From the NCBI RefSeq assembly GCF_009727055.1, contig NC_052359.1:57280845-57344844 (forward strand): a stretch of DNA of 64,000 nucleotides, given 5' to 3'. How positions within the stretch are numbered: the stretch's first letter is position 1; each line of letters begins with the position of its first letter. This document shows positions 1 to 59,580 of this stretch, one piece after another. The position numbers and the translations under genes were made by a program. The DNA comes from Benincasa hispida (taxonomy: Eukaryota; Streptophyta; Magnoliopsida; Cucurbitales; Cucurbitaceae). The notes under the pieces were generated by a model. The model worked only from the letters and a program-made list of their open reading frames with translations, searched no databases and was not told the DNA's origin.

Positions 1-1270
1 GGACTATGCGATGAGCATGAAAGTCTATGTGATCGTGCAGTGTGCTTCGAGTAACGCATGTTATGCGATCGTGCAGCTAACGACTACGCGATGAGCATGA
101 TAGTCTAACAATTGAGTAGCAAGCACCGAGTCTCATATACTAATAACAATTGATATCAATGGCAAGTAAATCGAGTAGCAAACGCTGATTAGTAATGAAT
201 AAATATTGCATGAAACATGACACTACCTTAAGTTTATTTATAAAAGTTATAAATAACTTATGTATGTCTAGCTAGCAATGTAGAATGGTTTTAATTGTTT
301 CATTTTTTTTTTATAAAAGTTATAATTAATGAAATTAGAATTAAAATCAATAATAAAGAGTTACATGCACACCTTAGGTTTTAATCATTTTTTTAAAAGT
401 ATTTTAAAATTTGATTGAGATAGACCTAAGATCACATTTCTAATAAGATTAGAAACCTAAATTTAATATTTTAAATCGGTTTAATAGGATTAAATTGATA
501 CTAATAAAAAATTAAATATGTAACAAATGTATTTATAAGGGACCTTTTGGCTAAGGCTAGTTCTGGCTAAGCTGGGGTACTTGGAAACGTCGCACCCCTA
601 CCTGGAAACTTACTTGGAAAGGTGAATTTGATAGATTTGTTACATGGATGCAAATTTGATGAAAGTCTATTAAAGAGTTTAATAAGATTTGAGTCAAACT
701 TTTTTTAATCATCAAAAGAAAATATTGTTTTTGAGCAAATTAAACAAACCACTTAGTTAAAATTAGTAGCCAAATTTTCTAAGTTAATGAACCCTAGGTA
801 GAATATTCAGTAGGAGGTAAATGGGTTATATGATACTTCACTTTAACCTCTATACGTTTTTCCCTAAAAGTTCACACCGTGAGATCTATCTTCGGCCTCG
901 AGGCACCTTTGAAATGTTCCCCTACGGGTGGCATTTAGGTAGGTCAATACCAAGGTGAACGGAGAGAATGTTCATAGTAAGTGGGAGCGAGATGTGTGAC
1001 AACATATCTCTCGGTCTCTCTCATTAGGTTGGATAAAGTGTTTGTGCATCGCCTCATGTGGGTGTCCCCCTAAAGGATGGCAGTTTTGCACAACTCTTTA
1101 TTTGATCTCCAGAAATGGATAGGGTTGCTTTAGTCTCTTGTCCTAATCAGCTTTTCCCTAAGGTTGGCTTAATAGGGCCGAACTCTAGGGTTTAAAATGA
1201 GGGGTTACACTTACACAGAATTGTTAAAGATGTTAACAAATTCTGGACCGAACAATGGTGACTATTAGAT
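1..1270 (+). other. Element A (copia): untranslated leader, 5' part outside the window
   Basis: This stretch has no credible coding frame. It matches, by eye, the leader of element C at about 18330-19540 in the same order and orientation, so it is the region between the primer binding site and gag of a copia element whose 5' LTR lies before base 1. Bases 1-180 hold scattered GCGATCG and GAGTAGC motifs like those at 17540-18020. Bases 868-1105 hold the leader block conserved in four elements of this window, starting with TTCACACCGTGAGATC, which contains the short hairpin TCAC-ACC-GTGA. Confidence 0.8.
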
Positions 1271-1291: not shown

Positions 1292-1329
1292 CTGTCTCTT
1301 ATACACATCTAGATGTGTATAAGAGACAG
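1292..1329. other. Tn5 mosaic-end junction adapter, copy 1 (library artefact)
   Basis: The sequence is the 19-base Tn5 mosaic end CTGTCTCTTATACACATCT directly followed by its reverse complement. That 38-base palindrome is the known circularisation junction adapter of transposase-based mate-pair libraries. It is synthetic and should not be in a plant chromosome. Confidence 0.98.
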
Positions 1330-1330
1330 G

Positions 1331-1420
1331 AACTCTAGGGTTTAAAATGAGGGGTTACACTTACACAGAATTGTTAAAGATGTTAACAAATTCTGGACCG
1401 AACAATGGTGACTATTAGAT
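1331..1420 (+). repeat. Exact 90-bp duplicate of 1181-1270, caught between two adapters
   Basis: Bases 1331-1420 repeat 1181-1270 with no difference that I can see, at an offset of exactly 150. They are bounded on both sides by the adapter palindrome. This is best read as the end of one library fragment assembled a second time, not as a genomic tandem repeat. Confidence 0.95.
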
Positions 1421-1458
1421 CTGTCTCTTATACACATCTAGATGTGTATAAGAGACAG
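1421..1458. other. Tn5 mosaic-end junction adapter, copy 2 (library artefact)
   Basis: This is the same 38-base palindrome as at 1292. An ATG inside it at 1442 opens a frame beginning MCIRDR, the peptide that this adapter yields when translated, so the start of that frame is not biological. The junction joins leader sequence ending ACTATTAGAT to gag sequence starting GAACATGATGG. In the uninterrupted relative C these points are about 620 bp apart (19536 to 20155). Confidence 0.98.
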
Positions 1459-1904
1459 GAACATGATGGTCCACTTCAATGTGGCAGAGATGAACGGGTC
1501 GAGCATCGATGAGGCCAGCCAGGTTAGCATTATTCTGGAGTCGTTACCAGAAAGCTTCCTTCATTTCATTAACAACGCTCTTTTGAACAAAGTTGACTAC
1601 AACCTTACAACTCTACTCAAAGAGTTGTAGACTTTCCAATCTTTGTTGAAAAGCAAGGAGAAGAAGGTTGGTGAAGCAAATATTGCTTCATCTTCCAAAA
1701 AATTCCACAAAGGTTCGACCTCTGGAACTAAGTTTGCACCTTCTTCCTCTGGCACTAGAAACTGGAAGGAGAAGAAGGGTGGTAAAGGGAAGGTACTTGC
1801 TAACCCACAACCTGCTGCTCTAAGGGGTAGGCAACCAGTGGAGGGTTGACAAGGGAAAATGTTTCCATTACAACCAAGACAGACACTAGAAGCGAAACTG
1901 CCCT
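1459..1904 (+). pseudogene. Element A: 3' part of copia gag with zinc knuckle (broken)
   Basis: This is the C-terminal half of a Ty1/copia capsid protein (UBN2-type gag). It begins at the peptide NMMVHFNVAEMNG, about codon 134 of the related gag in C; the first part is missing because of the adapter junction at 1421-1458. An in-frame TAG stands at 1628 where relatives have Gln, and the frame shifts near 1835 before the zinc knuckle. The knuckle (1860-1901) reads C-x2-Y-x4-H-x4-C: its second Cys is Tyr, and a TAG follows the His codon. In life this protein would package element RNA. Confidence 0.9.
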
Positions 1905-2700
1905 TGATATTTGGCTGAGAAGAAGAAGGCCAAACAAGGTAAATATAATTTAATAGTTTTGGAAACTTGTTTAGTGGAGAATGATGATTCTGCCTGGATT
2001 ATTGACTCTAGGGTCACTAACCATGTTTGTTCTTCATTTCAGAGAATTAGTTCCTGGTGGCAGCTTGGTACTGGTGAGATGATGATGCAAGTTAGAACTG
2101 GACATGTCGTCTCAGCTATGGCAGTGGGAGGTCTCCTTTTGACTTTACAGACTAAGTTTATCATTCTGAATGATGTATATGTAGTTCTCGAGTTAAAGAG
2201 GAACTTAATTTCTAAAAAGTCATTGCTTGAATGTAATTATCAAATACATTTTTCTATTAATCAAGTGTTTATTTCAAAAAATAGTGTTGATATTTGTTCT
2301 GCACAACTGGAAAGTAATTTGTATGTGCTAAAGTTGTTAGTAACAAATGCCCTCCATAACATAGAGATATTTAAAACTGTCATAACTCAAAATAAGCAAC
2401 TTAAAATTTCTCCTAAAGAAAATGCACAGCTTTGGCACCTAAGATTAGGGCACATTAATCTCAATAGGATTGAAAGGTTGGTGAAGAATGGACTTCTAAG
2501 CGAGTTATAATAAAATTCTTTACTTGTGTATGAGTCATGCCTTGAAGGCAAAATGACTAAAAGGCCTTTTATTGGAAAAGGTTATAGGGCTAATAAACCT
2601 CTAGAGCTAGTGCATTTAGACCTTTGTGGTTCGATAAATGTACGAGCTAGGGGAGGTTATGAATATTTCATCACTTTTATTGATGACTATTCAAGTTATG
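1905..2700 (+). pseudogene. Element A: copia protease, pre-integrase and integrase start (broken)
   Basis: The frame continues from the zinc knuckle. The aspartic protease site reads WIIDSR at 1995-2012, with Arg where the family has Gly after D-S, so the site is damaged. The pre-integrase zinc-binding region follows (HLRLGHINLNRIERL near 2430, then CESCLEGKM-like residues near 2530). Two consecutive TAA codons lie at 2508-2513. The first integrase catalytic Asp sits in FIDDYSSYG near 2680. The domain is then interrupted by the solo LTR at 2706 and resumes at 4731. Confidence 0.9.
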
Positions 2701-2705
2701 GGTAT

Positions 2706-4725
2706 TGAAGGAATACACAAGCATGCAACGGAAGCAAACAAAATCAATAAGTACTCTAGTTACATTTAATTTGAGTTCTAAAAGCATGCTTTCACAAGAG
2801 GGTTTGAAATAAACATACCTTTGATGAATACTTCCAATTTCAAGCTACTCTTCACGTTAATTCGACTCCAAATCAACAATGAAACACTAAGAGATCTTTT
2901 ATACTATTCTCAGTCTTGAATTTGAGTTGTGGAACTCAGATTTGAGTGAATTTGGTGAAGGAACTAGAGAGGGTTTATGAGGTAGAAGAAGAATTTGCAG
3001 CAGCTTGCTAAAAAACTCTAGCCATCTTTTATCTCAGCAAATTGGAGGTGTTTTTATTCACTTCAATCATGCAAGCACTGAAGCTCATCTCCATGCCAGC
3101 TTCTAGTTGCTCTTTGAAGTGGAATTTGTGTGTTAATCAAGGAGGAACACCTCCTACTTGGAGAAAAATGGGAATAATCCACTCAAAACTCATTTTTCAA
3201 ATTTCCAAATTTCCTATTTATTTCTTTTAATTAATTCTGAAATTAATCAAAACTTGATTATATTAATTCTTAATTAATCAAATCTATAATTACAAAATCC
3301 AAATCTCAAATTAAATTTAAAATTTAGAAATTAATTTGATTTTTAATTAATTAAACATATTTAATTAATTTAATTAATTTAATATCAAATATTAAATTAA
3401 TCACATACTAAATTTATAACATGAATCTAATTCATGTAATTGAAATTTAAATCAACATTTAAATATTATAAACTCTTCAATTTTGTTTAATTTCAAACGT
3501 GAATTATATTGAATATAATTATGCAAATCCTAATTTGATTTTGAACTAATTCAAACTCAAAGACCCTAATTTCAATTTAAACATTTTCAAATTGAAATTC
3601 AATTTGAACATTCAAATTGAAATTCAATTTGAACAATTCAAATTGATATCCTTCCAAATTCACTCAATTAATAATTCAAGGTGTTCATGTTTTACGAGCT
3701 AGTAGAGGGACCTTAGGGACCTACAGATCATGAGCTCCAACAATTAAGATTAATTGACTAAACTCTTTAGACCGAATTAATCAGTATTCATTAACTATCA
3801 AGTCACACCACTATAGCTCGATAGTTGCACTCTTCTTACTGTAGATATATTTGTCTCCACACGATATAACCATAACTAGTTAGTCGACCCTTCATAGGTT
3901 GTTCATAATATCGACTGGGTCAATGTGTTGTTTTACCCTCGATATTATGTCTTGTTCCTTAAATTCTAACTAATTCTCTAATGAACAATTGGTTTATGAT
4001 CCAATCACTAAACCGGATCCTTTTCAAGCCAGCGAGAAGGTTGGGCCTCTTGTTCAAGACCTGGATACAGTACTTAAGAGAACAACCTTTCTCCTATCCA
4101 TTGATCGGGTAGGCGTGAATTCCGTCTTACACCCTATGTCCCTAGTTATCTACCCAATTTTACCCCTGAAATGGGATACTTATTGAGCCGGCGCTATTGA
4201 GCCAACCCTCATCTATGAAATCTAAGGATAATCTCGATTAAACAGGAGTTCATAGTTAGCTCAGGATTAAGATCGAGTTACCTAGGTTATCTAAGCGAAA
4301 TAGTTAGTCTTAAATAGTAAACATCGTTAAAAAGTAAGAGCGACTTATTTCTTGGTTTGATCTTATGCAACCTAATTATATAGGACACCCTTACCCCTCA
4401 TGTCAATACATGAACGAATCTGGATCACTTCGTTTGTAGTATCCTTACAACAACTTATAACAGCTATAGAGTAGACCGCATCCAATAGTGTTACTAGAAT
4501 AAGGTACCCAACCTTAATCACGTACTATAGATTGTTTTGGCTATTTACTCAAACTTGGTCCATCTTTATGTCTCTACATAAAGTTCAAGAATTCATGTAA
4601 TGTCCATGGATCTTAGTTTATTGGATTTAGACTTTTATTAAAGAAATGTTGAATAACATCTTTTATTGATAATAGAATATGTTTAACTTTTACAAACTGC
4701 GAGTTTTAGGACATAAAACCCAACA
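2706..4725 (-). mobile_element. Solo copia LTR in element A integrase, TSD GGTAT
   Basis: On the minus strand this 2020-bp unit begins TGTTGGGTTTTATGTCC and ends TATTCCTTCA, the TG...CA form of copia LTRs. The flanks are GGTAT at 2701-2705 and GGTAT at 4726-4730, a perfect 5-bp target site duplication. Removing one copy rejoins the integrase codons for YGY...YLMQHK. No internal region is present, so this is a solo LTR left after recombination between the two LTRs of a full element. It is AT-rich around 3200-3660. Confidence 0.93.
3586..3646. repeat. 25-bp tandem repeat, about 2.4 copies, inside the solo LTR
   Basis: The unit starts TTCAAATTGAAATTC and ends AATTTGAACA; full copies are 3586-3610 and 3611-3635, with a partial third. 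Each unit is almost self-complementary around its centre, so each could fold as a hairpin. Confidence 0.85.
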
Positions 4726-17204: not shown

Positions 17205-19756
17205 AAGGTTGTTCTGATATTCTAAATTCCATTGATGTATTGATTTACATTTACAGTCTTGGTGGGTTTTATGTCTACAATGCATTTAAGTGTTAGATGT
17301 AACTGTGGATGTGAATTGATGGATGTTTAGGGATGATTGGCTCTATTTTTTTAAAGCTTTCTTTACATTTCAAAGTTAATTTGTAAGGGCACCTGTGGTT
17401 TTAGGCATAATTAACTTGTTATCGAGTATGTATTCAAGTTTTTAGTGTGTGATTCGTTCATGATGAAGCTTGAACACATGAAGATGTTGTTCATTTCATG
17501 GAAGAAGACCAAAGGTTGGTTGCATCGTGTAGCCTAGGCTAAACGATTGTTTAGATTTGGCTAGGTGATCGTGTAGAAAAGTTCTACTCAATCGTGTAGC
17601 ATTTGCTAAACGATCACATAGCTGATTCTACACAATCGAGTAAAGAGTTTACTCGATCGTGTTGTGTTGGCTACTCGATTGCATGAACACTAAGGGTAAA
17701 CGATCGCTGAGTATGTGATACTCGACGCATGGTAGGCGCACACACTAAATGATTGAGTAGGCCAGCATGCTCATCGCATAGTCACTGGCTACTCGATCCT
17801 CAGTGTAAGATACTCGATGCTTACTCCTCGATCGTTTAGACGATCATGCTTCATCGCATAGTTGTCATCTACTCGATCATTTAGGCATGTATTACACGGT
17901 GTGCGTTGCTCGATCGCGTGGCCTTGTTACTTCATCGCATAGTCCAAAGGCATTCGATCCATGCTACACAATCGTTTATACTCGATCAACGTTACTCGAT
18001 GATCAAAAGGAGCTACTATACGATCAAGGAATAAGTCTTCACTTGGGCGGTTCAAGACTCGGTTTGCCTGTTTGAACCAATTGACTTGATGGCTTATGTA
18101 ACAGATAGTTTTATTTATGGTTTTTGGAGGCTAATTATTCCGGTCCATCAATTTTTGATGAATGTACATGTGATGTATGTTTAATTATATGTCATAAAGT
18201 ATGCCATATAGTTTTAAAACCCACCATAGGTTATGCATTTATTCATGCATCATCTTTATATTATAATAGTTATAATATAGTAGTTTGCATGATGAAATTA
18301 CATTAAAGCATGCTCATGCATCACATAATATAAGAATTATAATATATGCATGGATTAAGCATATCCATGCATCATCTTTATATTATAAGTGTTATAGTAT
18401 AAGGATGTATGAAAGTATGTATACTTAGGTCATTACGAGTTATATAAGAGTTATATATAGTAATGGATTAACATTGCATGAAACTTGACACTTAGGTTAA
18501 TTTATAAAAGTTATAAATACCTAGTATAGCTTAGCCATGTGGATGTTTTTAGTTGTTTCATTTTTTATAAGTGTTATAATTAATGAAATTAGAAATAAAA
18601 TCAGTAAGAAAGACATGCATGCATGCACACTTAGGCTTTAATCATGTTTTAAAAGAGTTTTAAAATTTGATTGAGATGGACCTAAGATCATGGTTCTAAT
18701 GAGATTAGAAACCTAAGTTTAATCTTTTAATTCGGTTTAATAGGATTCAATTGATTAATAAAAGATTAAATATGTACCAAATCTATCTATAAGGGATCTT
18801 TTGTCTAAGGCAGGTTCTAGCTAAGCTGGGGTATTTAAGCTGACGGAAACAAAAGACCCTTACTACCTAGAAATATGAATTAGATAGATTTGTTGCATGC
18901 ATGCAAATTTGATGATAATCTGTTAAAGTGTTTAATAAGACTTGATTCAAACTTGTTTAATTATATTATTATTAAAATAAGTGTTGTTTTTAGCAAATTA
19001 AATACACACAGTTAAAATCAGTAGCTGGATTTACTAAGTTAATGAATCCCTAGGTAGAACATTCAGTGGGAGGTACTTGGGGTATATGATACTTCACTTA
19101 AACCTCTACACGTTTCTCCCTAAAAGTTCACACCGTGAGATCTATCCTCGGCCTCGAGGCACCCTGGAAGTGTCCCCCTAAAGAATGGTGTTTGGGTAGG
19201 TCAATACCAAGGTGAATGGAGAGAATGCTCATAGTAAGTGAGAGTGGGACGTGTGACAACATATCCCATGATCTCTCTCATTAGGTTGGATAGCATTTTC
19301 GTGCATCACCTCTAGGCACTCTAGGAGTGTCCCCCTAAAGGATGGTTGTATTTGCACAACTCTTTATCTGATCTCCTGAAAAAGATAACATTGCTTTAGT
19401 CTCTTGTTCTAATATGCTTTTTCCTTACTGTGGGCGCATTAGGGCAGGGCTCTAGGGCCTAAAATGATGGGTTAGTCTTATGCGAAATTGTTAAGGTTGT
19501 TAACAAATTCTGAATCGAACAACGGTGACTGTTAGAGTCAGTTACAAGGAGTTGTTTCTGTCTAATGGTTGAGAATGTCTCATCCCAATGAAGGGGCACT
19601 TAATCACCTCATCGATGACTTTTATCCAGCCTCGTTGGGGCATCATTGCAAAATAGATGTCACTTAGGGTACAATAGAACTATTTCGCTAAAACCTAAAA
19701 GTGGTAATGCAAGTAGACTTATTAAGTTTGTTCTTGTTTTCAACAACTTTTAATTA
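17205..19756 (+). other. Element C leader, about 2.55 kb
   Basis: There is no coding frame that I trust. Bases 17540-18020 hold a loose array of ACGATCG/ACTCGATCG words with CATCGCATAG. Bases 18150-18560 hold several TTATAATAGTTATAATATAG-like repeats. Bases 19126-19380 hold the leader block shared with A, H and B. The leader is unusually long for a copia element. Confidence 0.75.
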
Positions 19757-20691
19757 ATGGCAACCGCTACTTTAGCTCTTTTAGCCGTCGACAAACTAAC
19801 TGGTGAAAACTACGCCAATTGGAAGAACACGATAAACAAAATATTTATCATCGGTGACCTTTGGTTCGTCCTAATGGAGGAGTGTCCTTCTATTCCACCA
19901 TAAAATGCCGCTCAAAATGTTTGAGAGGCTTATGAGAAATGGACACGGGTGAACGAGAAGGCCTGAGCCTATATCTTGGCCAGCCTGAATGATGTCTTGG
20001 CCAAGAAGCATGAGTCCATGGTCACTGCACGTGAGATTACAGAGTCCCTTAAGGGAATGTTCGGACAACCGTCTGTGCAGCTGAGGCATGAAGCTCTAAA
20101 GTTCACCTTCAACTCCAAAATGAAGGAGGGTACATCTGTTTGTGAACATGTTATGAACATGATGGTCCACTTCAATGTGGCAGAGATGAATGGGTCTTGC
20201 ATCGATGAGGCCAACCAGGTTAGCATTGTTCTGGAGACATTGCCAGAAAGCTTCCTCCATTTTGTTAGCAACGCTGTTTTGAACAGGGTTGATTATACCC
20301 TTACAACTTTTCTCAATGAGTTGCAGACATTCCAATCCTTGCTGAAAAGTAAGGAGAAGAAAGTTGGTGAAGCAAATGTTGCTTCATCATCCAGAAAGTT
20401 CCATAAAGGTTCAACCTCAGGAATTAAGTCTACACTTTCTTCTTCCGGCACCAGCAAGTGGAAGAAGAAGAAGGGTAGTAAAGGGGAAGGGAAGGCACAT
20501 GCTAACCCACCACCTGCCGCTCTACGGGATAGGTGACTAGCGTCGGTTGAAAAAGGAAAATGTTTCCATTGCAACCAGGATGGGCACTGGAAGCGAATCT
20601 ACCCTCGTTTTTTAATGGAGAAGAAGAAAGCCAAAAAAGGTAAATATGATTTATTTGTTTTGGAGACTTATTTAGTGGAGAATGATGATTC
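19757..20691 (+). pseudogene. Element C: copia gag and zinc knuckle (broken)
   Basis: The ATG at 19757 starts MATATLALLAVDKLTGENYA, the usual beginning of this gag family. UBN2-type capsid motifs follow: AYILASLNDVLAKKHESM, LKGMFGQPSVQLRHEALKF, VHFNVAEMNG and LNELQTFQSLLKSKEKKV. In-frame stops are at 19901 (TAA), 19922 (TGA) and 19964 (TGA), and another lies at 20536. The zinc knuckle begins at 20561 as C-x2-C-x4-H, but the final Cys is Tyr (IYP for NCP). The reading frame is cut at 20691 by element H, shortly before the protease site. Confidence 0.92.
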
Positions 20692-20972
20692 TGAAGGAAC
20701 TCTTATTCAAGAGTACCTACGAGCGGAAGTGGATCTTTCCAATTCATTGTGACAGAATTACCGCATATACATTCAGACATACTTTCATGATGCAAAAGGG
20801 ATCAAGAAATCATACCAGATGAAGATTTCTTCTTCACAACGAGTCTGACTGTCTACCTCAAACAGTCACCACTCGAACAAAAGGAATTGGAGAAGACAAC
20901 ACCACTTAGAGCCCTCAGTATTCTTGGAGTGAGAATCCAAAGTGTGGACTTTGTTTGGATTTGGTAGAGGGA

Positions 20973-26904: not shown

Positions 26905-29255
26905 TAAAAAAACCGTTGTTGAAAAAAGAATAATAACCTTTTATAAGACTTTGCAAAAACCACTTTTAAATTAACCAATTAATTTTTAGCAAAACAGATT
27001 CCAAGTACCCTAAGTGAAAAGACTTCTTGTTTGCAATGATGCCCTAGTGAGGCAGGACAAATGTCACCGGTGGGGTGATCCGATGGCCCTTCACTAGAAT
27101 GGGACAATCTCAACCATTAGGCAGAACCAACTCTTGGAACTAAACCTAATAGCCACCATTTGTTCGGTCCAGAATAGTTAACCCTTGACAATCCTACATA
27201 AGTGTAAACCATTGTTTTCGGCCTCAGAGTCTCGCCCTAATGCGCTTACCATAGGGTAAAAACAGATTAGGACAAGAGACTAAGTAACCTATCCTCTTAC
27301 AAGAGATCAAATAAAGAAACGCGCAAAACAACCATCCTATAAGGGGACACACCCAGGGTGCCACGAGGCGATGTGCAGAAACTTTATTCAATCCAACGAG
27401 GGAGACCGAGGGATATGCTGTCGCACTTCTCGCTCCCACTTACTATGAACACTCTCTCCATCCACCTTGATATTGACCTACCCAAACACCATCCGTTAGG
27501 GGGACATGCCAAAGGTGCCTCGAGGCCGAGTGTAGATCCCACGGTGTGGACTATGAGGGAGAAACACGAGAGATGAAAATGAAGCATCAAATGCCCCAAG
27601 AACCTCCCACTGAATGTTCTACCTAGGGGTTTATTAACCTAGACAATCCGGCTACTGATTATGATCTAAGTCATTTATAAAGTTTGCTAGAAAACAACTT
27701 TTGTCTTTAAAAAAAAACAAAGTAGTCACATTAAACTTTTTAATGGATTGGCCTTAGTTTGCATGCATCAAATTTATCTAAATTACCTTTCCAGGTAGGT
27801 TCCCAGGTAGGGGTGTTTCATTGCTGTCATCTTAAATACCCCAACCTAGACAGAACCCGCCTTCGACAAAAGGTCTACTATAGATAGAATTTCTACATAT
27901 GGATATTTTAGTTCTAATTTCATTTTATAACCATTTATAAAATAAACAACTAAAACACTCATCCCACATAACGAAGTATTTATAACGTTTATAAATATAA
28001 CGAAAGAAAATAATAATAATAAAACATACATAAACATAACCCTTATATTATATTATGCATGAGCATACATTTATGTAAATTAAAACATGCTTCTCTAAAT
28101 TATAACACTTATAATAAAGAAAATATGCATGACCTAAGGTGGGGTTTATCTATATGTGCATACCATATGACATATTAAAAACCTACATCGCATGTAAAAA
28201 ATGAAGGATTTATGGACCGGGATGAGCCTTTACAAAATCGGAATGAAATAGCCCTATCTATTACATTTTTCATTGAGCAAACCAGTTCACAGGCGAACCG
28301 AGTCTTGAACCGTTAGGAGGACTCCATCATGTAGTAAATGCTATAGATAGACGATCGTTCAGCGCGCATTAGACGATAGAAGCATAATTAAACGATTGCA
28401 TAGACAACGACGAGGCTGCGAAGCCTGATCGTCTATGCGATCGTGTAGCATGACGACAGGTAAATGATTTACCTTGCGTTACTAAGCGATCGTTTAGTCA
28501 ATTACTAAGCGATGAAGCTTGCTAACCTAAACGATCGACCAGGCGCACGCGTTAAGCGATACGCGAACATCTCATCGTCTAACCGATGCGTGCAACCAGG
28601 TAAATGATTTACCTTGCGTTACTAACCGATGAAGCCTGCTGACCTAAACGATCGACCAGGCGCGCGTGTGAAGTGATACGCGAGCATCACCTCGTCTACA
28701 CGAACCGATACCCAGTGATCGCGTAACCGATCTTCAACACGATGCGATCAACCCTTAGTCACTTACCCGATCTTCTACATAATGCGATCATCAGCGATCG
28801 TGTACCCCATCGACTGTACGATGCGATCAACACTTGACCGCATACCCCATCATTTAACCGATGCGATCAACAACGATCGCATACCCCATTGACTGCAAGA
28901 TGTGATCAACACTTGATCGCATTCCCCATCGTCTACACGATGCGATCTAAACTTGATCGCATACCTTCCTCGAAGAACCACAATGCTTGCTTCGATCTTC
29001 TTCGTGAACGATTCAAAACTCAAACAGACTTTGAATACAAACTCAATAACGATTATTAATGCCCAAAAACGCAAGGGCCTTTATAAACAACCGTAAATGT
29101 AAAAGAATTAAAACAAACCAAGGCTAACATCCATGAAAACATCCATAAATCCGCACATCCACAACAATTTAACAATTAAACAGTGTATAAATACACCCAC
29201 CAAGAACGTATTTGCAATTCTTTTGCAGCAATGAATTGGAATGTCAGAAAACCTG
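26905..29255 (-). other. Element H leader
   Basis: No coding frame. It contains the conserved leader block at about 27300-27560 (inverted relative to A, C and B as expected from its strand), AT-rich TTATAA repeats at 27930-28110, and a dense group of ACGATCG, GCGATCG and ACGATGCGATC words at 28340-28930. Confidence 0.8.
28340..28930. repeat. Dense GATCG-motif cluster in H leader
   Basis: More than twenty CGATCG, CGATGCGATC or one-base variants occur in 590 bp. The right end has a loosely tandem unit close to CGATGCGATCAACACTTGAT (about 28745-28960). The segment around AGGTAAATGATTTACCTTGC near 28460 recurs at 28596. Confidence 0.8.
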
Positions 29256-29267
29256 GCTCTGATACCA
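29256..29267 (-). other. Element H primer binding site (initiator tRNA-Met)
   Basis: The minus strand reads TGGTATCAGAGC exactly, two bases from the LTR end at 29270. This is the standard copia primer site. Confidence 0.95.
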
Positions 29268-31007: not shown

Positions 31008-32407
31008 AAATGTGCGAGTTGGCACCAGACACGTCATCTTAGCTGTGGCAGTGGGAGGCCTTCGGTTGACTTTACAGAATAAGTTTATCATTTTAAATGA
31101 TGTGTATGTTGTTCCCGAGTTAAAAAGAGGAACTTAATTTCTATAAAGTCATTGCTTGAATGTAAATACACTCTAAACTTTTTAGTTAATAAAGTGTTTA
31201 TTCTGAAAGATGGTATTGAGATATGTTTAGCTAAATTGGAAAATAATTTGTATGTGCTAAGGTCATTAGTAACAAATTCCCTCCATAACATAGAGATGTT
31301 TGAAACTACCGTAACTCAAAACAAACGACTTAAAGTTTCTCCTAAAGATAATACCCAACTTTGGCACCTTCGTTTGGGGCACATCAATCTTAATAGGATT
31401 GAGATATTGGTGAAGAATCGACTTCTAAATGAGTTAAAAGAAAATTTTTTACCTGTGTGCGAGTCATGCCTTGAAGGCAAAATGACTAAAAGACCTTTTA
31501 TTGGAAAAAGTTATAGGGCCAAAGAGCCTCTAGAGTTAATGCATTCAGAATTTTGTAGTCCGATGAATGTGCGAGCCAGGGGACACTACAAGTATTTCAT
31601 CACTTCTACTGATGATTATTCGAGGTATGGGTATATTTATTTAATGTAACATAAGTCAGATCCTTTAAAAAGTTCAAAGAGTTCAAGGTTGAAGTTGGAA
31701 ATGAATTAAGTAAACGAATTAAAACACTTCGATCTGATTGGGATGGAGAGTTTTTGGATTCTGAGTTTCAGAACTATTTGATAGAACATGGAATGGTTTC
31801 CCAACTCTCAGCACATGGTACACCTCAGAAGAATGGTGTATCAGAGAGGAGAAATAGAACCCTGTTGGACATGGTTCGGTCAATGATGAGTTACGCTTCC
31901 TTACCAGACTCGTTTTAGGGTTTTTTTAGTAGAGACCGCAGCTTACATCATCCTTAACTGTATTCCCTCCAAGAGTGTTTCCAGAACACCTTTGGAATTG
32001 TGGAATGGGCGTAAAGTTAGTTTGCGTCACTTCCGCATCTGAGGTTNCTCCAAGAGTGTTTCCAGAACACCTTTGGAATTGTGGAATGGGCGTAAAGTTA
32101 GTTTGCGTCACTTCCGCATCTGAGGTTGCCTGCACATGTGCTTGAGGCTAATCCTAAGAAATTGGAACCACGTTCGAGGTTGTGCCTATTTGTAGGCTAC
32201 CCCAAAAGGACACGAGGGGATTACTTTTATGATCTTAAGGAAAACAAGGTGTTTGTATCGACAAACACTACATTCCTTGAAGAGGATCATATAAGGGAGC
32301 ACAGTCTATGAAGTAAAATCGTGTTGAGTGAACTTTCCAAAGAGTTGTTGAAGAGCCTGCTACATCAATAAGAGTTGTTGATGGAAGTTCATCTAGTAGG
32401 TAAAATC
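31008..32407 (+). pseudogene. Element C: protease end, pre-integrase and integrase (broken)
   Basis: C resumes with VGTRHVILAVAVGGLRLTLQ. The frame at 31152-31649 carries HLRLGHINLNRIEIL, CESCLEGKMTKRP and STDDYSRYGYIYLM (first catalytic Asp). After a TAA the core continues with LRSDWDGEFLDSEF, where DRGGE has become DWDGE, and GVSERRNRTLLDMV (Glu present). The C-terminus LCLFVGYPKRTRGDYFYD is at 32180-32235. The piece 31967-32127 is distorted by an assembly duplication. Confidence 0.9.
31967..32127. repeat. 80-bp duplication around a single N (assembly join)
   Basis: Bases 31967-32046 and 32048-32127 are identical, and base 32047 is the only N in the window. The doubled segment encodes integrase residues present once in the relatives. 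Two contig ends that overlap by 80 bp were evidently joined without merging. Confidence 0.95.
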
Positions 32408-47881: not shown

Positions 47882-49752
47882 TGTAACACTAAAGAATGAA
47901 TCATACAAGCTCATGTCCCCGGCAACGGCACCATAAACTTGTAAGCGCATAATGTATAATGATGTGTAATGCGATGATATGCGATACTACTTCTAGATGT
48001 ATGCGTTATTAATGAAATGCTTGTAGTATGCCATGCGTTATCAAAAGTTTCCTTACATTGAAACCAAGTATAATTCCACCGTAAGTTTCTCGGAGTGAAC
48101 CGAGGTCGAACACAGGGATTGTGTAGTTAATGCGTTACGTTCGTGATATATACGACCGTGGATTTTTCAATTAATAAAAAGTTGTGTTTATACAAGTATT
48201 TAAATTGTGATAAAGTAAAATTATGCGGTAAAGTAAAGTTGCGATAATAAAATAAAATGCGATAAAAGTAAACCTAAGCTATTATGATACAAGATACTGA
48301 TACATGATACTGAGACTGAGACTGATTGTGAAGATTATACAAAGGGTCGTGTTATGCGGTGGCAAGTTTTTATGTATGAAACATAGATAGAAAGGGTAAT
48401 TAATATAAAAATCGCAAGTTTATTAATTGCATTAAAGATTTAACTACGGTTCCGCTTTCCCTTGAAGTACACCTCTCGGTGATCGACCGCGTTCCCACAT
48501 CTCTGTGGTGAAACAAGGATGAACGTAATGAGCGCAAGGTTGCTTCCATCTCTGGAAGTACTACTTGCTTTAGTTAACACATTCTTCTAACCTTCTCTCG
48601 ACAGGCAGAATGGCATCTTCACTTCTGCTCTCACAGGTGAAGATGTCGTCTAGCATGCTTTAGCTAAACATATTTATTTCTTTAGCACAGATTTATTTAC
48701 TTTTTTAATTCATTCTAATTACCAAGGGATTAAGAAAACGTCATGGAAAAAGCAGTTAATGGAGGAATGGAAATAGACAGAAAGATGGAGATGAAAATGA
48801 TCATGACATATACTAATATTTAGCGTCTGATACATGGTGCGAATGATAGAGATTAAGAAGATGAATACAATTGATGATAAGAGATAGAAACAAATACAGA
48901 AGAGTGCCAACATCTTAACACAGATCTAGACGGTGGATTTGCTTGCCGGCGAATGGAGTGAATGGAAGGAAGAGCTTCCCTCTTAGGCTTGCTCGTCCGG
49001 TAGGAGTGACCTTGGTACAGAGCTTCATGGTGGGGATTGAAAGGATTTGTCCTGAGACTCACCTCTCGGCCTTGTCTCTTAAATCTTCCCAGATCTTCTC
49101 CGATCAGCACTCAGACCAGTCTTTCTCTCAATATACAAATATCAAAATATGCCTGTATCAAGTATATTTTTTCAATGGAACTTCAAAGGCTATTTATAGG
49201 CTCAACTTTGACTTTCTAATTTGTGGACCCCACTTTATTGTTATGGCAATTCCGAAAATGGTGGAGTGAATATTCCTTCTGTTACGCGATCAATTCCGTC
49301 AGAAATGCACAACGGTCAGCTGCACACGTGTCAGGATCCTCCGCAATTGCGCTGCTCTTTTGCATCTTCGATTGTTTGCCCGCATGCGGTTTTGTTTTCT
49401 ATTACTGCATGTGATTGACGTTACGTTGATCGCAAAGCTCTTGATCGATTGTCGCATGCGCCGTCATTGCGTTGATCGTCTATTCATTCCTGAATGATGG
49501 GTGCAATATGACGTAGATGCGTTGATCTTTTCTCTTGAGCCCATGAACGCATACGGTGACTTGATTTCCTACAAAACATATTTCAAATATTCTTTTCTAC
49601 CATCACAATGGTGTCAATGGGTGTATTGACGAAAATTTATAATTCTTGCATTTCTTATCTAATTTTTCTACAATTGACACAACTTTCCTTTTCTTTTGGC
49701 GACAATATCTAAATAAAGCAGTATAAATAACTTGTATTTCTACAAGTTATTA
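47882..49752 (-). mobile_element. Element K: internally deleted Athila-like relative of D, TSD CCTAG
   Basis: CCTAG flanks it at 47877-47881 and 49753-49757, and the host LTR reads on across it. It consists of 58 bp of terminal and leader sequence (starting TGTAACACTAAAG) with a primer site at 47916-47933, then a complete leftward LTR 47940-49752 closely related to the D LTRs. The left LTR and nearly the whole internal region are missing. The LTR end is TTATTA instead of TTATCA. The leftward TATA box is at 49191-49198. Confidence 0.88.
47916..47933 (-). other. Element K primer binding site (tRNA-Asp)
   Basis: The minus strand reads TGGTGCCGTTGCCGGGGA, one base from TGGCGCCGTTGCCGGGGA. This is the best-preserved tRNA-Asp site in the window. 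Confidence 0.9.
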
Positions 49753-51087
49753 CCTAGGTTAACTCGATCTTAATCCTGGGCTAGCTTAAACTCCTGTTTG
49801 TTCGGGATTATCCTTTGATATGAAAATGATGAGAGTAGTCCAACAGCACTGCTCGATAAGCTTACCATTTTGGGGATAAGACCGGATGAATAGCTGAGGA
49901 CATATCTTGCAAGATGGAATTCGCTCCTACCTATTTAGGGTTAGCAGATAGGTAGTTCTCTTAAGTACTGACTCAGGTCTTGAACAATCAGGGCCTCACC
50001 TTCTCATGATAGAGAAGGATTTGATTCATAGAGATTATGAATCATAATTGTTCATTAGAGGATCAGTAAGAATTAAGGAACAAGATGTAGTCATAGGGTA
50101 AAACGGTATTTTTGACCTAGCTGTGATTACGAACAACCTGTGAAGGATCGACTTACTAATTATGGTTATTAAGTGGACATAATATATCTACAGTGAGGGG
50201 AGTTCAACTATAAGGCTAATGTGGAGTGTACCCATTAGTTAACAAATGGGGGTTAGATCGGACTAATGAGTTTAACCGATTAATCTCGAATCGTTGGAGC
50301 CCATGATCTGTAGGTTCGCGAGGTCCCCCTATTAGCTCATAAATGGATAAGCTTTAGGATAGTTTGAGAGATTAATTTGAAATGTTCAAATTAAACGGAA
50401 CAAGAGAATAAATATATAAATATGATTTAAATATATAAAGATGATTGTTGTGCAAAAAATTAATTTAATATTTGATATTAAATTAATTAATTTTTTAAGT
50501 TAATTTATGAAAATCAAATTTTGAATTAAAATGATTTAATATCATTTTTGGTTTTAAAAAGAAAATGAAAATCGTTTGCATGATAGCACAAAAATGGAAA
50601 ATGGGTATTTTCCATTACCATCATCTTTATGCTCACACAAAATGCATTATCTTCTTGACCTTGATTCTCCAAGCATGAGCTGCATTCTATCACTTTGCAT
50701 GTTCATCTATTATATAAAGTAGAATAGAGTTATTGGAGAAGAGGATAATGAACAGAATTTCGAGAGAAATTTTTTAGAAGAAGAAACTATCTTTTTCGGC
50801 TGTGCTGTTGTGAGTTTCTATGATTTCTTCACTTCTTCAAGCTGTTCTTGAGTCCCACAACTCTACCTAAAGCTCCAAGAGCATAGTAGGGAAGGCTTTT
50901 AGGTGGTTCACGTTGATAACAAAGGCAGACAATAGCTGAACAGGCGTTATCTTGAAGAGTTCATCAAAGGTATGTTCATAAAACCCACTTTTTGAGAAGA
51001 GCGGGCTTTAGTTTTTGCTAAAATTAGTGAATTAGAAAGCTTATGGATCCTTGATAGTTCCACTGCATATTTTTTTACTCTTTCAAT

Positions 51088-51099
51088 TGGTATCAGAGC
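51088..51099 (+). other. Element B2 primer binding site (initiator tRNA-Met)
   Basis: TGGTATCAGAGC, exact, two bases after the LTR end CTTTCA. Confidence 0.95.
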
Positions 51100-53552
51100 A
51101 TCTTTTAAGCTTTCAATTCGGTCTAATTTTGGCAAGGTGGGTGATTTTCCATGAGATATATGAAACTGATGCACTGCTATGATTTTCTCTGTTTTGGCAT
51201 TTTAATTCTCTTTAATTTCTCAATTAAATTTGTTATTGGCTCTTGTTTGATGAGCATTTATGTGTTAGCAAGAGTCTGTAATTTATTTGGAGTCATTAGA
51301 GTTGAAATTAAGATATAATTGAAGAAACAAGCAAAGGAGGTCAAGTTGCTATTCGAGTTTTTTCAGCTTCTACTTAAATATGTTGTTGAGGTCCAGTTGC
51401 TAAACGATCATTTAGCTCAGACGTTGCATGATGAGAAGAAAAGCTAGACGATCATTTAGTAATATGTGTTGGTCGTTGTGATGTTGAACGCTAAACGATC
51501 ATGTACCTGCGGGAGCTAAGCGATGCGTTCATTTGCTATACGATAGTATTACGCGATCATTTAGTTTTTGTTGTGGGAACTAGACAATTCGTTGATTTTG
51601 CTAAACGATGGTGCTATACGATCGTTCAGCAATGATGCACGCTAAACGATACGATGAAATGCTACACGATAGCATTGAGCGTTCGTTTGGTCGCGGAGCT
51701 AAGCGATCGTGTAGATAAATGCTATACGACGCGATGATGTTCTATACGATGGAGCTATGCGATCATTAAGCTGCGGGCAAATACTAAATGACGACTTGAA
51801 TGCGCTGGGCGATGGTGTTATGCAATCGTTTAGTACTATGCGATGGAGCTAAGCGATTGCACTGCGATGGAACTAAATGATCGTCTAGTCCTATGCGATA
51901 GAGTTAAACGATCGTTCAAGTTTTAGGAAACACTATGTGATCGTGTAGTTCCTCACAACTCCAGGTGATGACACTAGACAATTACATCCAGATGTTACAC
52001 GACCAGCCTTAGCAGCATATTGAGGTTGGACCGAGAGAAACCGATTCGATCGGTTTATTCAAGGTTCAATCTGGTTCAGCCTCAAATGGTTGTGGTTGGT
52101 TTGATTCAGGCTTTGTTGGTCTAGTTTAGACACGTCCAGCCTGGTTCAAGTTGTTTTGGGTTCAGTTTGGAACGGTTCGAGTGGTTCAAAGATGATTTTG
52201 AAGTTGTTAGTAATAGTTAGCTGTCTGTTTGCTTGTTTATGCCAAAACGAAAACCATAACAGTTAGTATTTAATTGTTTATGCATGAGATGTATGTGATA
52301 ATTAAATAAATTCATGTATGTACAGTATGCCATGTAGATTTAAAACCCCACCATAGGAAGCATGTTACATGCATTGACAGTACGTTATAATTGTTATAAT
52401 ATATAGTATACATGTTAGGGTTATGTTTAATATAATAATTATATTAGATACCTTTGTTGAATGTTGTGGATGTTTAAGCATGTCTAAATTTTGTAAGTTG
52501 TTATAAAATTGGTTAGACATTTAAAATCCATAACAAAGAACAGCTGCATGCTCACTTAGATTGACAACTAATTTTAATCGTTAAAATAGATTGTTGCCTT
52601 ATAAAATACGGTTACAAACTCATATCGGCTCATAAATCTGTCTAAGGTTGGGGGTACTTAAGTTGACGGTTTACGGAACACCTCCTACCTGGGGATTATG
52701 ACCGAACAATTGAGAGTTGTTAACTAATTTTATGAGCTTGCATGAGTGATATGAGGTAATAACATGGTTTATCACCTAGACACTGTAGGTTAAATCCAAT
52801 TATAAAAGTTATATTTGGATAAACCACTTAGACTTAGGTTGTATGAAATTAGTCGTCATGCCTAAGTAAATTAACCAAACATTTAGAATACTTCAGTGGG
52901 AGATTAACAATATATTTGATATATAGTTATTAGCTCTCACATCCTCAAGAGTTCACACCGTGAGATCCATGCTCAGTTTCTTTTCAATTTTACCTTGACT
53001 GCTCCATACGGAAAATGTTTGCATGGGTCAATAACAAGGTGAATGAGGGAAGTGGTTCATAGTAAGTGGGTGAAAGAAATGTGTCAACATTATCCTACGG
53101 TCTCCTCCATTAGTTTGAACTGTGAGATTCCTATGTTGCGCCTTCTGTTGTTTTTATGTGGCACTAGCTATTCGTTAACCGCAACGATCCCTACGGAGGA
53201 TTGTAACATAGGAATCGAAACAACTTAAGCTTCAGTAAAATGAATAGGGTCTTATAGTTCCGTCTTGGATATTGTCTTCTCTCTCGAAGGCATATTCATA
53301 TTGTCCTATAAGATCTGAAAATGGCGGGTCACACTTTCAAGAATTACTAAGTATTAGTAAAGATCTTGACCGAAAACGATAACCAAAAGAACATTGGGAT
53401 ATGAGTTATTTTAGATAATAGTATTTGGTCAAGAACTGTCTTACTTCTGTGAAGGAATTCTTGACTGCCCCACGGTAGCACTTGTTCTAAATCACTTAAA
53501 TATCGTTATAAATAAATAAAGATTTATTGGGTACTTTATTAGTTTTGCTAAA
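51100..53552 (+). other. Element B2 leader, about 2.45 kb
   Basis: No coding frame. Bases 51395-51965 hold the GATCG-type motif cluster, 52030-52200 a GGTTCAG/GGTTTGG-rich stretch, and 52950-53140 the leader block shared with A, C and H, more diverged here. Confidence 0.8.
51395..51965. repeat. GATCG-motif cluster in B2 leader
   Basis: CTAAACGATCATTTAG-like words, GCGATCG, and CTATACGATCGTTCAG occur about every 20-30 bp, irregularly spaced. They are mixed with GCTAAGCGATCGTGTAG forms. Confidence 0.8.
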
Positions 53553-55199
53553 ATGGATTTAGATGCATATTTAATAGAATTTATTTAAAATGTTTCAGAA
53601 AAACTTCTTGCTTCTGAAAAATTTAACAGAGAGGGTTACTCCAACTGGAAATCAAATATCAATACAATATTAGTAGTAGATGACTTGAGGTTTGTATTAA
53701 CAGAGAAGTGTCCTCCAGTTCCCAGTTCAACGGTGACCCGAAATGTTTGGGATGTTTATGATAGGTGGGTTAAGGCGAACAAAAAATCCCGGGCCTATAT
53801 CTTGGCAAGTATATCTGATGTACTCAACAAGAAACACGAGGTCATGCTCATAGCTCGTGAGATCATGGCATCATTACAGGAGATGTTAGGGCAACTGTCA
53901 TCGTCTGTTAGACATAAAGCCATTAAATATGTGTATGTGACACGTATGAAGGATGGGACCAACGTGAGAGAACATGTTCTCGACATAATGGTCCATTTTA
54001 ACATCGCAGAGGCTCACAGGGCTATGATAGACGAAACAAGTCAGGTGAGCATGATACTAGAATCTCTTCCTAAGAGCTATATACCGTTCAGGACAAATGC
54101 TGTCATGAACAAAATCACTTATAACTTAACGACGTTGTTGAATGAATTGCAAACTTATCAATCGATGATGAAACTCAAGGAAAAGGAAATAAATGTTATT
54201 TCTAAACCGAAAAAGTTTTACAAAGGGTCTACTTCTGGTACAAAACCCGTTGATGATAAGAAAGCTAGTCCTTCTTCTTCTTCTAAAGATAAAACCGTAC
54301 AGATGAAAAAGAAAGGAAAAGGGAAAAAGAAAACCACTGTGAAGAAAAACAAAAACAAAACTCCCAAGGGAAAATGTTTCCATTGTGGAGAGGTTGGGCA
54401 TTGGAAGAGTAATTGCCCAAAATATTTGGCTAAAAAGAAAGCAGAAAAGAATAAACAAGGTAAATATGATTTATTAGTTGTTGAAACATGTATAGTGAAA
54501 AATTCTCACCTTAACTGGATATTAGATTCAGGCGTCACTAATCATGTTTGTACTTTTCTACAGGAAACTAGTTCTTGGAGAAGACTTTCTGAATATGAGA
54601 TGACTTTCAAGGTGGGCACAGGTGAAGTCATTTCAGTTGAAGCAGTGGGAGATGTGAAGTTGTTTTTTGGGAGTTCTTTTATCTTACTCAAGAATGTGTT
54701 CTTTGTATCTAAGATGAAAAGGAATCTAATCTCCATTTCTTGTCTTTTAGAAAATATATACAGTGTATCTTTTGAATGTAATGAAGTGTTTGTTTATTCA
54801 AGAGATGTTCATATTTGTTCTGCTAGACTTGCAAATAACTTATACATATTACAACCAACAGAACCAAAAGTTATTTTAAATATAGAGATATTTAAAACAG
54901 CTAAAACTCATAATAAAAAGCGAAAAATTTCTCCTAACGCCTATCTTTGGAACCTCAGGCTTGGTCACATTAATCTCAATAGGATTGAGAGATTGGTAAA
55001 AAATGGTCATCTAAATCAGTTAGAAGACAGTTCTTTACCTCAATGTGAATCATGTCTTAAGGGAAAAATGACGAAAAGATCTTTTTCTGACAAAGGTTTT
55101 CATACCAAAGAACCTCTTGAACTTATACATTCAGACCTTTGTGGTCCAATGAATGTTAAAGCTCGAGGAGGATATCAGTACTTCGTCAGTTTTAGATGA
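53553..55199 (+). pseudogene. Element B2: gag, protease and pre-integrase (one stop, nearly open)
   Basis: From the ATG at 53553 (MDLDAYLIEFI) the frame has one TAA at 53586 and is then open to 55197. UBN2 capsid motifs are AYILASISDVLNKKHEVM, MLGQLSSSVRHKAIKY and VHFNIAEAHR. A Lys-rich basic linker precedes a complete zinc knuckle, CFHCGEVGHWKSNC (near 54377), the only fully conserved one in the window. The protease site reads WILDSGVTNHVC (near 54520). The pre-integrase HINLNRIERL and CESCLKGKM follow. The frame is lost at FVSFR-stop, by a one-base loss just before the first integrase Asp. Confidence 0.93.
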
Positions 55200-55990
55200 T
55201 TACTCTCGATATGGCTATATTTACTTAATCAGTCACAAGTCTGAAACTCTTGAAAAGTTCAAAGAATTTAAGGCTGAAACTGAAAATTAGTTAAGTAAAA
55301 GAATTAAAACACTTCGATCTGATCGAGGTGGTGAGTATATAGATTTTTTATTCCAGAACTATCTAGTAGATCATGGAATTCAATCCCAACTCATGACACC
55401 TGAAACACCACAACAAAACGGTGTTATAGAAAGGAGAAATCGAACTTTGTTGGACATGGTTCGGTCTATGATGAGTTATGCTCATTTACCTCAATCCTTT
55501 TGGGGATATGCAGTACAGAATGCAGTTTATATTCTGAACGTTGTTCCATCCAAAAGTGTTTAAGAAACACCATATCAATTGTGGAAAGGACGCAAAGCAA
55601 GTTTACGTCATTTTCGCATCTAGGGTTGTCCAGCACACGTGTTAGTATAGAATCCGAAGAAATTGGAAACACGTTCGAAATTATGCCTATTTGTAGGATA
55701 TCCCATGGAAATAAAAGGAGGATACTTTTATGATCCCCAAGAAGATAAAGTGTTTGTATCGACAAATGCAACTTTCTTGGAAGAGGATCATATTAAGAAT
55801 CATCTACCTTGTAGTAAACTAATATTGCAAGAACTGTCTAAAGATACTACAAATAAATCAAGAGTTATTGATCAAGCTGGTCCATCAACAACGGTTGTTG
55901 TCCCGTCACGTCCATCCTAAGAGTTGGGGATGCCTCATCATAGTGGGAGGGTTATTCAACAACCTGAATGTTACATTAATAGAAACTCAA
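55197..55990 (+). pseudogene. Element B2: integrase core and C-terminus (broken)
   Basis: After the frameshift the core reads DDYSRYGYIYLI, LRSDRGGEYIDFLF (second Asp) and GVIERRNRTLLDMVRSMMSY (Glu), so all three catalytic residues survive. Stops are at 55288, 55561, 55621 and 55651. The C-terminus LCLFVGYPMEIKGGYFYDP is in the frame 55663-55918, followed by a Ser/Thr linker and HHSGRVIQQPE. Confidence 0.9.
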
Positions 55991-56770
55991 AACATCATAC
56001 AAGATGATGATATAGATCCATTAACCTTTAAGAAGGCAATGGAAGATGTTGACAGGACAATGAAATGGAGTCTATGTACTTCAACTCAGTATGGAAACTT
56101 GTAGATCAATCACAAGGTGTTACACCTATACGTTGTAGTGGATCTATAAGAGAAAACGAGACCAAACTGGCAAGTACAGACATATAAAGTCAGGCTCGTG
56201 GCAAAGGGTTTTACCTAAAGAGAAGGAGTAGATTATGAAGAAAATTTTTCTCCTGTTGCCATGATTAAATCAATAAGAATACTTCTAGCCATTGCCACAT
56301 ATTATGACTATGAAATATGGAAAATGGATGTCAAGACAGCTTTTTTGAATGGCTATCTTGATGAAAGTATTTTATATGTCTCAACCAGAGGGGTTCATCG
56401 AAACAGGACAGGAACAGAAAGTCTGTAAGATTAATCGATCCATTTATGGATTGAAACAAGCGTCCAGATCCTGGAATATAAGATTTGACACTGCGATCAA
56501 ATATTATGGCTTTGAACAGAACATTGACGAACCTTCTGTATACAAGAAGATAGTCAACAAAACTGTAGCATTCTTAGTTCTGTATGTTGATGATATCTTG
56601 CTCATTGGGAATGAGACAAGCTTTCTTGCTGACATAAAGAGATGGTTAGCATCACAGTTCCAAATGAAAGATTTGGGTGATGCTCAGTATGTTCTAGGAA
56701 TATAGATCTTTCGAGACCGAAAGAATAGAACATTAGCACTGTCTCAGGCATCTTATATTGACAAGATGTT
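55991..56770 (+). pseudogene. Element B2: reverse transcriptase (broken)
   Basis: The first part (55990-56350) is spread over all three frames: FKKAMEDVDR, MESMYFNSVWKLVDQ, ARGKGFYL-type and MENGCQDSFFEW-type pieces reflect at least three indels. From 56349 the frame is clean: YMSQPEGFIETGQEQKVCKI, SIYGLKQASRSWNIRFD, the catalytic YVDD at 56583-56594, and FQMKDLGDAQYVLGI, ending with a TAG at 56703 where relatives have Gln. Confidence 0.9.
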
Positions 56771-57554
56771 GTCAAGGTATAATATGCAAAATTCCAAGAA
56801 AGGTTTATTACCTTTCAGGCATGGAATTCATTTGTTGAAGGAACAATGTCATAAGACACCTCAAGAGGTTGAGGAGATGAACAAAATTCCATATGCCTCT
56901 GCAGTTGGGAGTTTGATGTATGCTATGTTGTGTACATGTCCCACATATGTTTTGCAGTTGGAATCGTCAGCAGGTTCCAATCTAATCCTGGACACGGACA
57001 TTGGACCGCTGTAAAAAATATCCTCAAGTATCTTAAGAGAACGAGGGACTATATGCTTGTGTATGAACCTAAGGATTTGATCCTTACGGGATATACTGAT
57101 TCTAATTTTCAGACTGACGTAGATTCTAGGAAATCTACTTCAGGATCAGTTTTCACTCTTAATGGAGGAGCTATAGTTGGAGAAGCATCAAGCAAAGTTG
57201 TATCGTTGACTCCACCATGGAAGTGGAATATGTGGCTGCATGCGAAGCTGCTAAGGAAGCAGTATGGCTACGCAAATTCTTAGCTGATTTGGAAGTCGTT
57301 CCAAATATGCACCTGCCTATCACACTGTATTGTGACAACAGTGGTGTTGTTGCTAACTCAAAGAACCCAGGAGTCATAAGCATGGAAAAAACATTGAACG
57401 AAAGTACCATCTCATCTGGGAGATTGTAAACAGAGGAGATGTGCTCGTCACAAAGATAGCCTCTAAAGACAACCTTGCTGATCCATTCACCAAAGCCCTC
57501 TCGGCTAAAGTTTTCGAGGGCCACCTAGTGGGACTAGGACTCCAAGTAGTGTAA
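56771..57554 (+). pseudogene. Element B2: RNase H (broken)
   Basis: It carries PQEVEEMNKIPYASAVGSLM, a frameshift near 56940, GIVSRFQSNPGHGHWTAVKN, LILTGYTDSNFQTDVDSRKS, a shift near 57175, [20 protein letters not shown] (catalytic Glu), LYCDNSGVVANSK (catalytic Asp), a further shift near 57365 and the C-terminus GHLVGLGLQVV with a stop at 57552. Confidence 0.9.
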
Positions 57555-57670
57555 TCTAGGGCAAGTGGGAGAATGTCTATGGTATTGTAGATGCCCTAGT
57601 TTATTGTATTTTTCCCACTATGTATCTCGACATTATATTGTATATATTTGTTCTCACTAGAGTTTTAGTC

Positions 57671-57682
57671 CAAGTGGGAGAT
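57671..57682 (+). other. Element B2 polypurine tract
   Basis: CAAGTGGGAGAT directly before the LTR at 57683. Confidence 0.85.
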
Positions 57683-59432
57683 TGTTGGGAATGTCCTAGA
57701 ATTCACAGTTCGTGTTTATGTAATCCATAACAATGATTTGTTGATTTTGCATCTTATTATGAAAATCCAATAAACGCATCCTTGGCTATAGTCTGAATGC
57801 TGTAACTTTATGTAGTGACATAAACAGGATCAAGTTGACAGTATATAACTTAAATAGTATAATAAGTATATGGATGAAATTGGGTATCTCATCCTGTAAC
57901 ACTATTGGATGCGGCCCACTCTGTAGTTGTTACAAGAAGTTGTAAGGTGCTACAAATGATGTGATCCACAAATCGTTCATGTTGAGACATGAGAGTGGGG
58001 GCATCCTATGCAATGAGTTTGCATATAGACTGGACCACGAAAATAGTCAATTTTCTTTATAACGACCGTTTACTGTTAAAACTGACTATTTCATTTATTA
58101 TATAACCTAGTTAACTCGATTTTAATCCTGAGCTAGCTATGAACTCCTGTTTGTTTGGGATTATCCTTTGATATGCAAACGGTGAGAGTAGTCCAACAGC
58201 CTGCTCAATAAGCTTACCATTTTGGGGATAAGACCGGATGAATAGCTGGGGACATAGCCTTGCAAGATGGAATTCACTCCTGCCCTATTTAGGGTTAGCA
58301 GATACGTTGTTCTCTTAAGTACTAACTCCAGGTCTTGAACAATCGGGGCCTCGCCTTCTCATGATAGAGAAAGGATTTGATTCATAGAGATTATGAATCA
58401 GAATTGTTCATTAGAGGATCAGTAGGAACTTAAAGAACAAGATGTAGTCACAGAGGTAAAACGGTATTTTTTACCTAGTTGTGATTACGAACAACCTGTG
58501 AAGAATCGAATTACTAATTATGGTTATTAAGTGGACATAATATATCTACAGTAAGGGGAGTTCAACTATGGGCTATAGTGAAGTGTCCCATTATTTAACG
58601 AATGGGGGTTAGATCGGACTAATGAGTTTAGCCGATTAATCTCGAATCGTTGGAGCCCATAATCTGTAGGTTCGCGAGGTCCCCCTACTAGCTCGTAAAT
58701 GGATAAGCTTTAGGGTAGCTTGAGAGATTAATTTGAAACGTTAAAATTAAACGGAACAAGAGAATAAATATTTAAATATGATTTAAATATATAAAGATGA
58801 TTATTGTGCAAAAAATTAATTTAATATTTGATATTAAATTAATTAATTTTTTAAGTTAATTTATGAAAATAAATTTTGAATTAAAATGATTTAGTATCAT
58901 TTTTGGTTTTAAAAAGAAAGTGAAAATCATTTGCATGATAGCACAAAAATGGAAAATGGGTATGTTCCATTACCATCATCTTTATGCTCACACAAAATGC
59001 ATTATCTTCTTAACCTTGATTCTCCAAGCATGAGCTGCATTCTATCACTTTGCATGTTCATCTATTATATAAAGTAGAATGGAGTTATTGGAGAAGAGAA
59101 TAATGAACAAAATTTCGAGAGAAATTTTTAGAAGAAGAAACTATCTTCTTCGGCTGTGCTGCTGTGAGTTTCGCTAGTTTCTTCACTTCTTCAAGTTGTT
59201 ATTGAGTCCCACAACTCTGCCTAAAGCTCCAAGAGCATAGTAGGGAAGGCTTTGAGGTGGTTCACATTGATAACAAGGGTAAACAACAGCTGAACATGCG
59301 TTATCTTTCATCAAAGGTATGTTCATAAAACCCACTTTTTGAAAAGGACATGCTTTAGTTTTTGCTAAAATTAGTGAATTAGAAAGCTTATGGATCCTTG
59401 ATACTTCCGCTGCATATTTTTTTACTCTTTCA
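57683..59432 (+). repeat. Element B2 3' LTR (1750 bp, uninterrupted)
   Basis: It begins TGTTGGGAATGTCC and ends TTACTCTTTCA. TATA box TATATAAA at 59066-59073, followed by the conserved splice-like CAAAGGTATGTTCATAAAAC near 59315. It inserted into an H-family LTR: the base after its end continues ATATGATTTATATCTAG as in the minus strand of 21535-21560. Confidence 0.92.
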
Positions 59433-59580
59433 ATATGATTTATATCTAGTAGAGGAAAATATTATAATTAATATACAATATTAATTTATATGTTATGAAT
59501 ATGATAAGATCACATTCATTGGCCGATTGTAAAGGAAATGGGACAGCGTCTCTTCTGTTCTAAATAACGGATGAGTGCAT

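Follow-up and report, generated by a model that had tools for sequence, protein, structure and literature searches.

Results

The locus and its copia-type elements

Near the start of the window, by which we mean the whole 64,000-base stretch of DNA that was analysed, lies a copia-type retrotransposon, element A, interrupted by a block in which two short palindromes enclose a copy of nearby sequence (Table 1). Relatives B and C lie in the same window, as does element D, the only element for which an LTR pair was demonstrated; its two LTRs are 93% alike. The leader of D is unusually long: about 2.6 kb lie between its primer-binding motif and the listed gag frame (53685). The pol region of A is interrupted by about 2 kb (2706-4725) relative to 31013-31892, and a portion of this interruption, 3691-4290, aligns in inverted orientation with the D LTR at about 75%, perhaps marking a nested LTR insertion.

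Table 1. Positions of the block in element A and of the features compared with it, in window coordinates.
Feature	Position	Strand	Basis
Leader of element A, genuine copy, repeated at 1330-1420	1180..1270	+	exact 91-bp match; aligns to relatives B and C
First junction adapter, 38 bp (Tn5 mosaic end and reverse complement)	1292..1329	.	exact
Mosaic end, copy 1	1292-1310	+	exact
Mosaic end, copy 2	1311-1329	-	exact
Duplicate of 1180-1270, between both adapters	1330..1420	+	exact, 91 bp
Second 38-bp junction adapter	1421..1458	.	exact
Mosaic end, copy 3	1421-1439	+	exact
Mosaic end, copy 4	1440-1458	-	exact
False 62-aa frame MCIRDR..., begins in adapter, continues into gag remnant	1442..1630	+	translation
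Rest of gag and start of pol, copia-type element A	1459..2705	+	alignment with B and C; gag_pre-integrs and Pol_BBD domains within 1911-2507
CTGTCT/CTGCCT comparison	A 1285-1297; B 19552-19563; C (reverse complement) 27111-27136
Relative B	18458-20693	+	aligned to both flanks of A
Relative C	27900-25259	-	aligned to both flanks of A; Retrotran_gag_2
Exact primer-binding motif	29256-29267	-	motif search
Element D	49748-59434		LTR pair; Retrotran_gag_2
LTRs of element D	49748-51087 and 58101-59434		93% alike
Exact primer-binding motif	51088-51099	+	motif search

To place the left flank of the block within A, we compared it with C and D. A search of the window for primer-binding motifs with up to 2 mismatches gave four matches against 3.75 expected, which is no more than chance, and we relied on the two exact motifs and on the upstream LTR of D, which ends directly before the exact motif at 51088. 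A segment related to positions 942-1031 of A lies 1.9 kb beyond the motif in D and 1.4 kb beyond it in C, which indicates that the left flank of the block (1180-1291) is leader and not LTR. By the same comparison with C and D, the 5' LTR of A would lie before the start of the window.

Two exact mosaic-end palindromes around a local duplicate

A scan of both strands of the window for the 19-bp Tn5 mosaic end returned four matches, all exact although up to 3 mismatches were permitted. By chance 0.04 would be expected, and four matches were reached in none of 100 shuffles. At 1292 and again at 1421 the mosaic end is followed, with no spacer, by its own reverse complement, making a perfect 38-bp palindrome, just as the sequence-only reading of this DNA had described. 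Pieces of this 38-mer of 12 bases or longer were found nowhere else in the window outside the block, and eight further adapter and linker sequences had no exact match on either strand of the window. Between the palindromes, the earlier reading was right to see an exact duplicate of upstream sequence, and its length of 90 bp needs correction to 91 bp.

Two junctions in 64,000 bases do not establish a library-wide trimming failure. The 9 bases to the left and right differ at each junction, so that neither carries a 9-bp target duplication. G, a Tn5-like start, is the first base at three of the four genome ends in the window (P about 0.026 for three or more G at the G content of the window, a weak result with n = 4). 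Both right-hand ends begin with GAAC, as do none of 288 ends in other loci, possibly by chance. Within about 1 base of the point that matches 1291/1292, B reads CTGTCT and C reads CTGCCT; these resemble the first six bases of the adapter, a likeness that may also be fortuitous.

Sequence missing from element A

Relative B aligns to the two flanks of the block at 81% and 84% and relative C at about 75%, and neither B nor C, both within the window, has an adapter at the place where A has the block. Between the flank points there are 596 bp in B and 617 bp in C, against the 167-bp block in A. The flanks of the block are thus not contiguous, as in a mate-pair artefact, and the true product would be 429-450 bp longer than the one assembled. 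About 133 codons separate the gag starts of B (19757) and C (26904) from the base that matches 1459; the gag of B contains stop codons. As far as alignment to relatives can do so, these data confirm that about 600 bp of A, with some 133 codons from the start of gag among them, are unrepresented in the contig, and that A appears without the start of gag because of a misjoin. The loss had previously been put at about 620 bp and the same 133 or so codons, figures with which both relatives broadly agree, whereas the excess of 450-500 bp predicted for the true product was right in direction and slightly too large.

The frame beginning MCIRDR had been called a false product. It starts within the second adapter and runs on into the gag remnant, and on this evidence it is spurious. 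MCIRDR was not found in the literature searched for MCIRDR or VYKRQ, so the case against such frames rests on the sequence presented here.

The same 38-mer in other assemblies

The 38-mer is also present in unrelated assemblies. It occurs in at least 120 stretches of genome contigs, with 17 bacterial genomes named among the 80 titled matches listed, and 7 stretches of viral contigs also contain it. The number of genome-contig stretches and of named bacterial genomes among the matches listed mark it as a common library contaminant.

The 120 genome loci listed contain 147 junctions; three were left out because of short flanks, leaving 144 usable. At 15 of these junctions a single short piece of 27-158 bp flanks the adapter on either side, at 16 one flank is repeated within 300 bp, at 30 a flank is repeated elsewhere in the locus, and at 83 there is no repeat in the locus. 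Set beside the 83 junctions that have no repeat, the 15 with a short piece on both sides suggest that the local geometry seen in the window is recurrent but a minority form, which counts somewhat against the reading favoured below. The first base is G at 44.4% of the 288 genome ends in the other loci listed, against a background of 23.6% in the loci overall. In several of these loci short inserts separate two or more adapters. Several 38-bp adapters fall inside a few hundred bases in, for example, L048 and L082 (among L008-L127).

This arrangement has a known source. As described in the NextClip paper (PMC3928519), transposase puts a 19-bp biotinylated adaptor on each fragment end and circularisation joins the two; NextClip searches for the resulting 38 bases, one adaptor forward and one as reverse complement. 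The same paper reports that the use of unprocessed reads in scaffolding led to a lower scaffold N50. The identical 19-mer is printed as the start of adapter sequences removed in another study (PMC11575248). Given the exact match and its layout, it is nearly certain that the block is an untrimmed Nextera mate-pair junction adapter built into the assembly, not biology.

How the pieces were joined

The two junctions step in opposite directions. The first leads from 1291 back to the copy of 1180, spanning a 112-bp fragment if a single fragment is involved. The second leads from the copy of 1270 forward to 1459, a distance of about 617-638 bp on the scale of the relatives. Either junction alone could represent the right end of a fragment joined to its own left end, but the block as a whole makes a net step forward. 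With one step back and one forward, the block cannot come from one fragment of this locus circularised on its own, and the earlier proposal that the contig joins two ends of a mate-pair fragment finds no support in the form in which it was put. We therefore regard the block as, almost certainly, an adapter artefact in which more than one fragment took part; several reads or pieces linked one after another via the adapter common to them would fit better than one circle.

We propose that the pieces were brought together during assembly. Fragment ends would have received 19-bp mosaic ends by Tn5 tagmentation, and the joining of those ends would have formed the 38-bp palindrome; reads running into such junctions would have been left unclipped. 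The region between about 1291 and 1459 may then have been filled from locally recruited reads, with the software walking from read to read through the shared 38-bp word. In such a walk the first read would end at 1291, the next would cover 1180-1270 and the last would start at 1459, and the real sequence of about 600 bp would never have been placed. A fill of this kind, drawing on local reads that have one 38-bp word in common, would explain why all three pieces come from the locus. Bridging by software rather than by ligation is perhaps the somewhat likelier way in which the pieces were joined.

The alternative that survives best, a serious contender though at less than even chances, keeps the adapter artefact and has the pieces physically ligated in the library, so that the contig follows real chimeric reads. 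Short tagmented fragments could have been ligated into a concatemer, or one very small circle could have undergone a further ligation. Adapters flanked on either side by the same short piece, as at the 15 usable junctions described above, are expected if short fragments join themselves or their copies, and the other loci with two or more adapters around short inserts also speak for ligation. Three pieces from one stretch of about 0.9 kb would rarely be united at random, however, and local read recruitment would be simpler.

One ordinary mate-pair circle, its odd geometry possibly arising through an LTR-to-LTR mix-up, is very improbable. Each junction taken alone has a mate-pair layout, but there are two of them, one going back over the 112-bp fragment and the other then going forward. 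A mix-up between LTRs is disfavoured as the source of both steps, since the comparison with C and D, where the related segment lies well past the primer-binding motif, makes the left flank of A leader, and the window holds no second copy of 1-1291 downstream of gag. A real genomic insertion of Tn5/IS50-type ends can be rejected with hardly any reservation: the 19-mer is a functional transposase end, but two bare ends abut directly and no transposon body accompanies them, a 9-bp target duplication is absent at both junctions, a stretch present in the relatives is missing, the same 38-mer is scattered across unrelated assemblies, and the mosaic end was made in the laboratory by combining the two IS50 ends.

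A second irregular join was seen elsewhere in the window. A single N at 32047 lies between two exact 80-bp copies (31967-32127), one closing the left part and the other opening the right; no tandem copy of this kind was found for the related elements (family D20) in the repeat listing. The N probably marks two overlapping contigs joined unmerged, and 80 would equal k-1 if k were 81. It shows that the window contains at least one other unresolved or faulty join, in keeping with an artefact at the block in A.

Discussion

We conclude that the block in element A is an error of assembly rather than a true feature of the genome. That it is adapter contamination does not hinge on raw reads or on a search of the host genome; how the pieces were joined does. 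For users of the assembly the result is a data-quality warning: neither the truncation nor the age nor the proteins of element A should be inferred from this locus, and any frame that begins MCIRDR deserves distrust. Screening for the exact 38-mer would be cheap and useful, since many public genome records still contain the adapter. A more general idea, which we put forward as speculation and think unlikely to hold, is that gap fillers use the palindromic 38-bp adapter as a universal bridge, creating false forward joins in repeats and silently losing real sequence, and that some apparent 5' truncations of retrotransposons in assemblies of the mate-pair era are artefacts of this kind.

Compared with known systems, the elements of the window resemble copia-type LTR retrotransposons in their domains, gag_pre-integrs and Pol_BBD in A and Retrotran_gag_2 in C and D; A departs from them in that the start of its gag is seemingly absent, through the misjoin. 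The block shares with IS50/Tn5 transposon ends its 19-mer, a recognition end of Tn5 transposase. Unlike them, it has neither a transposon body nor a 9-bp duplication, and the mosaic end is synthetic. The closest counterpart is the junction adapter of Nextera (Illumina) mate-pair libraries: the exact 38 bp of mosaic end and reverse complement occur here twice, in the layout given in the NextClip paper (PMC3928519). The block differs from that model in having two junctions around a 91-bp local duplicate, with outer flanks that step forward and not only back.
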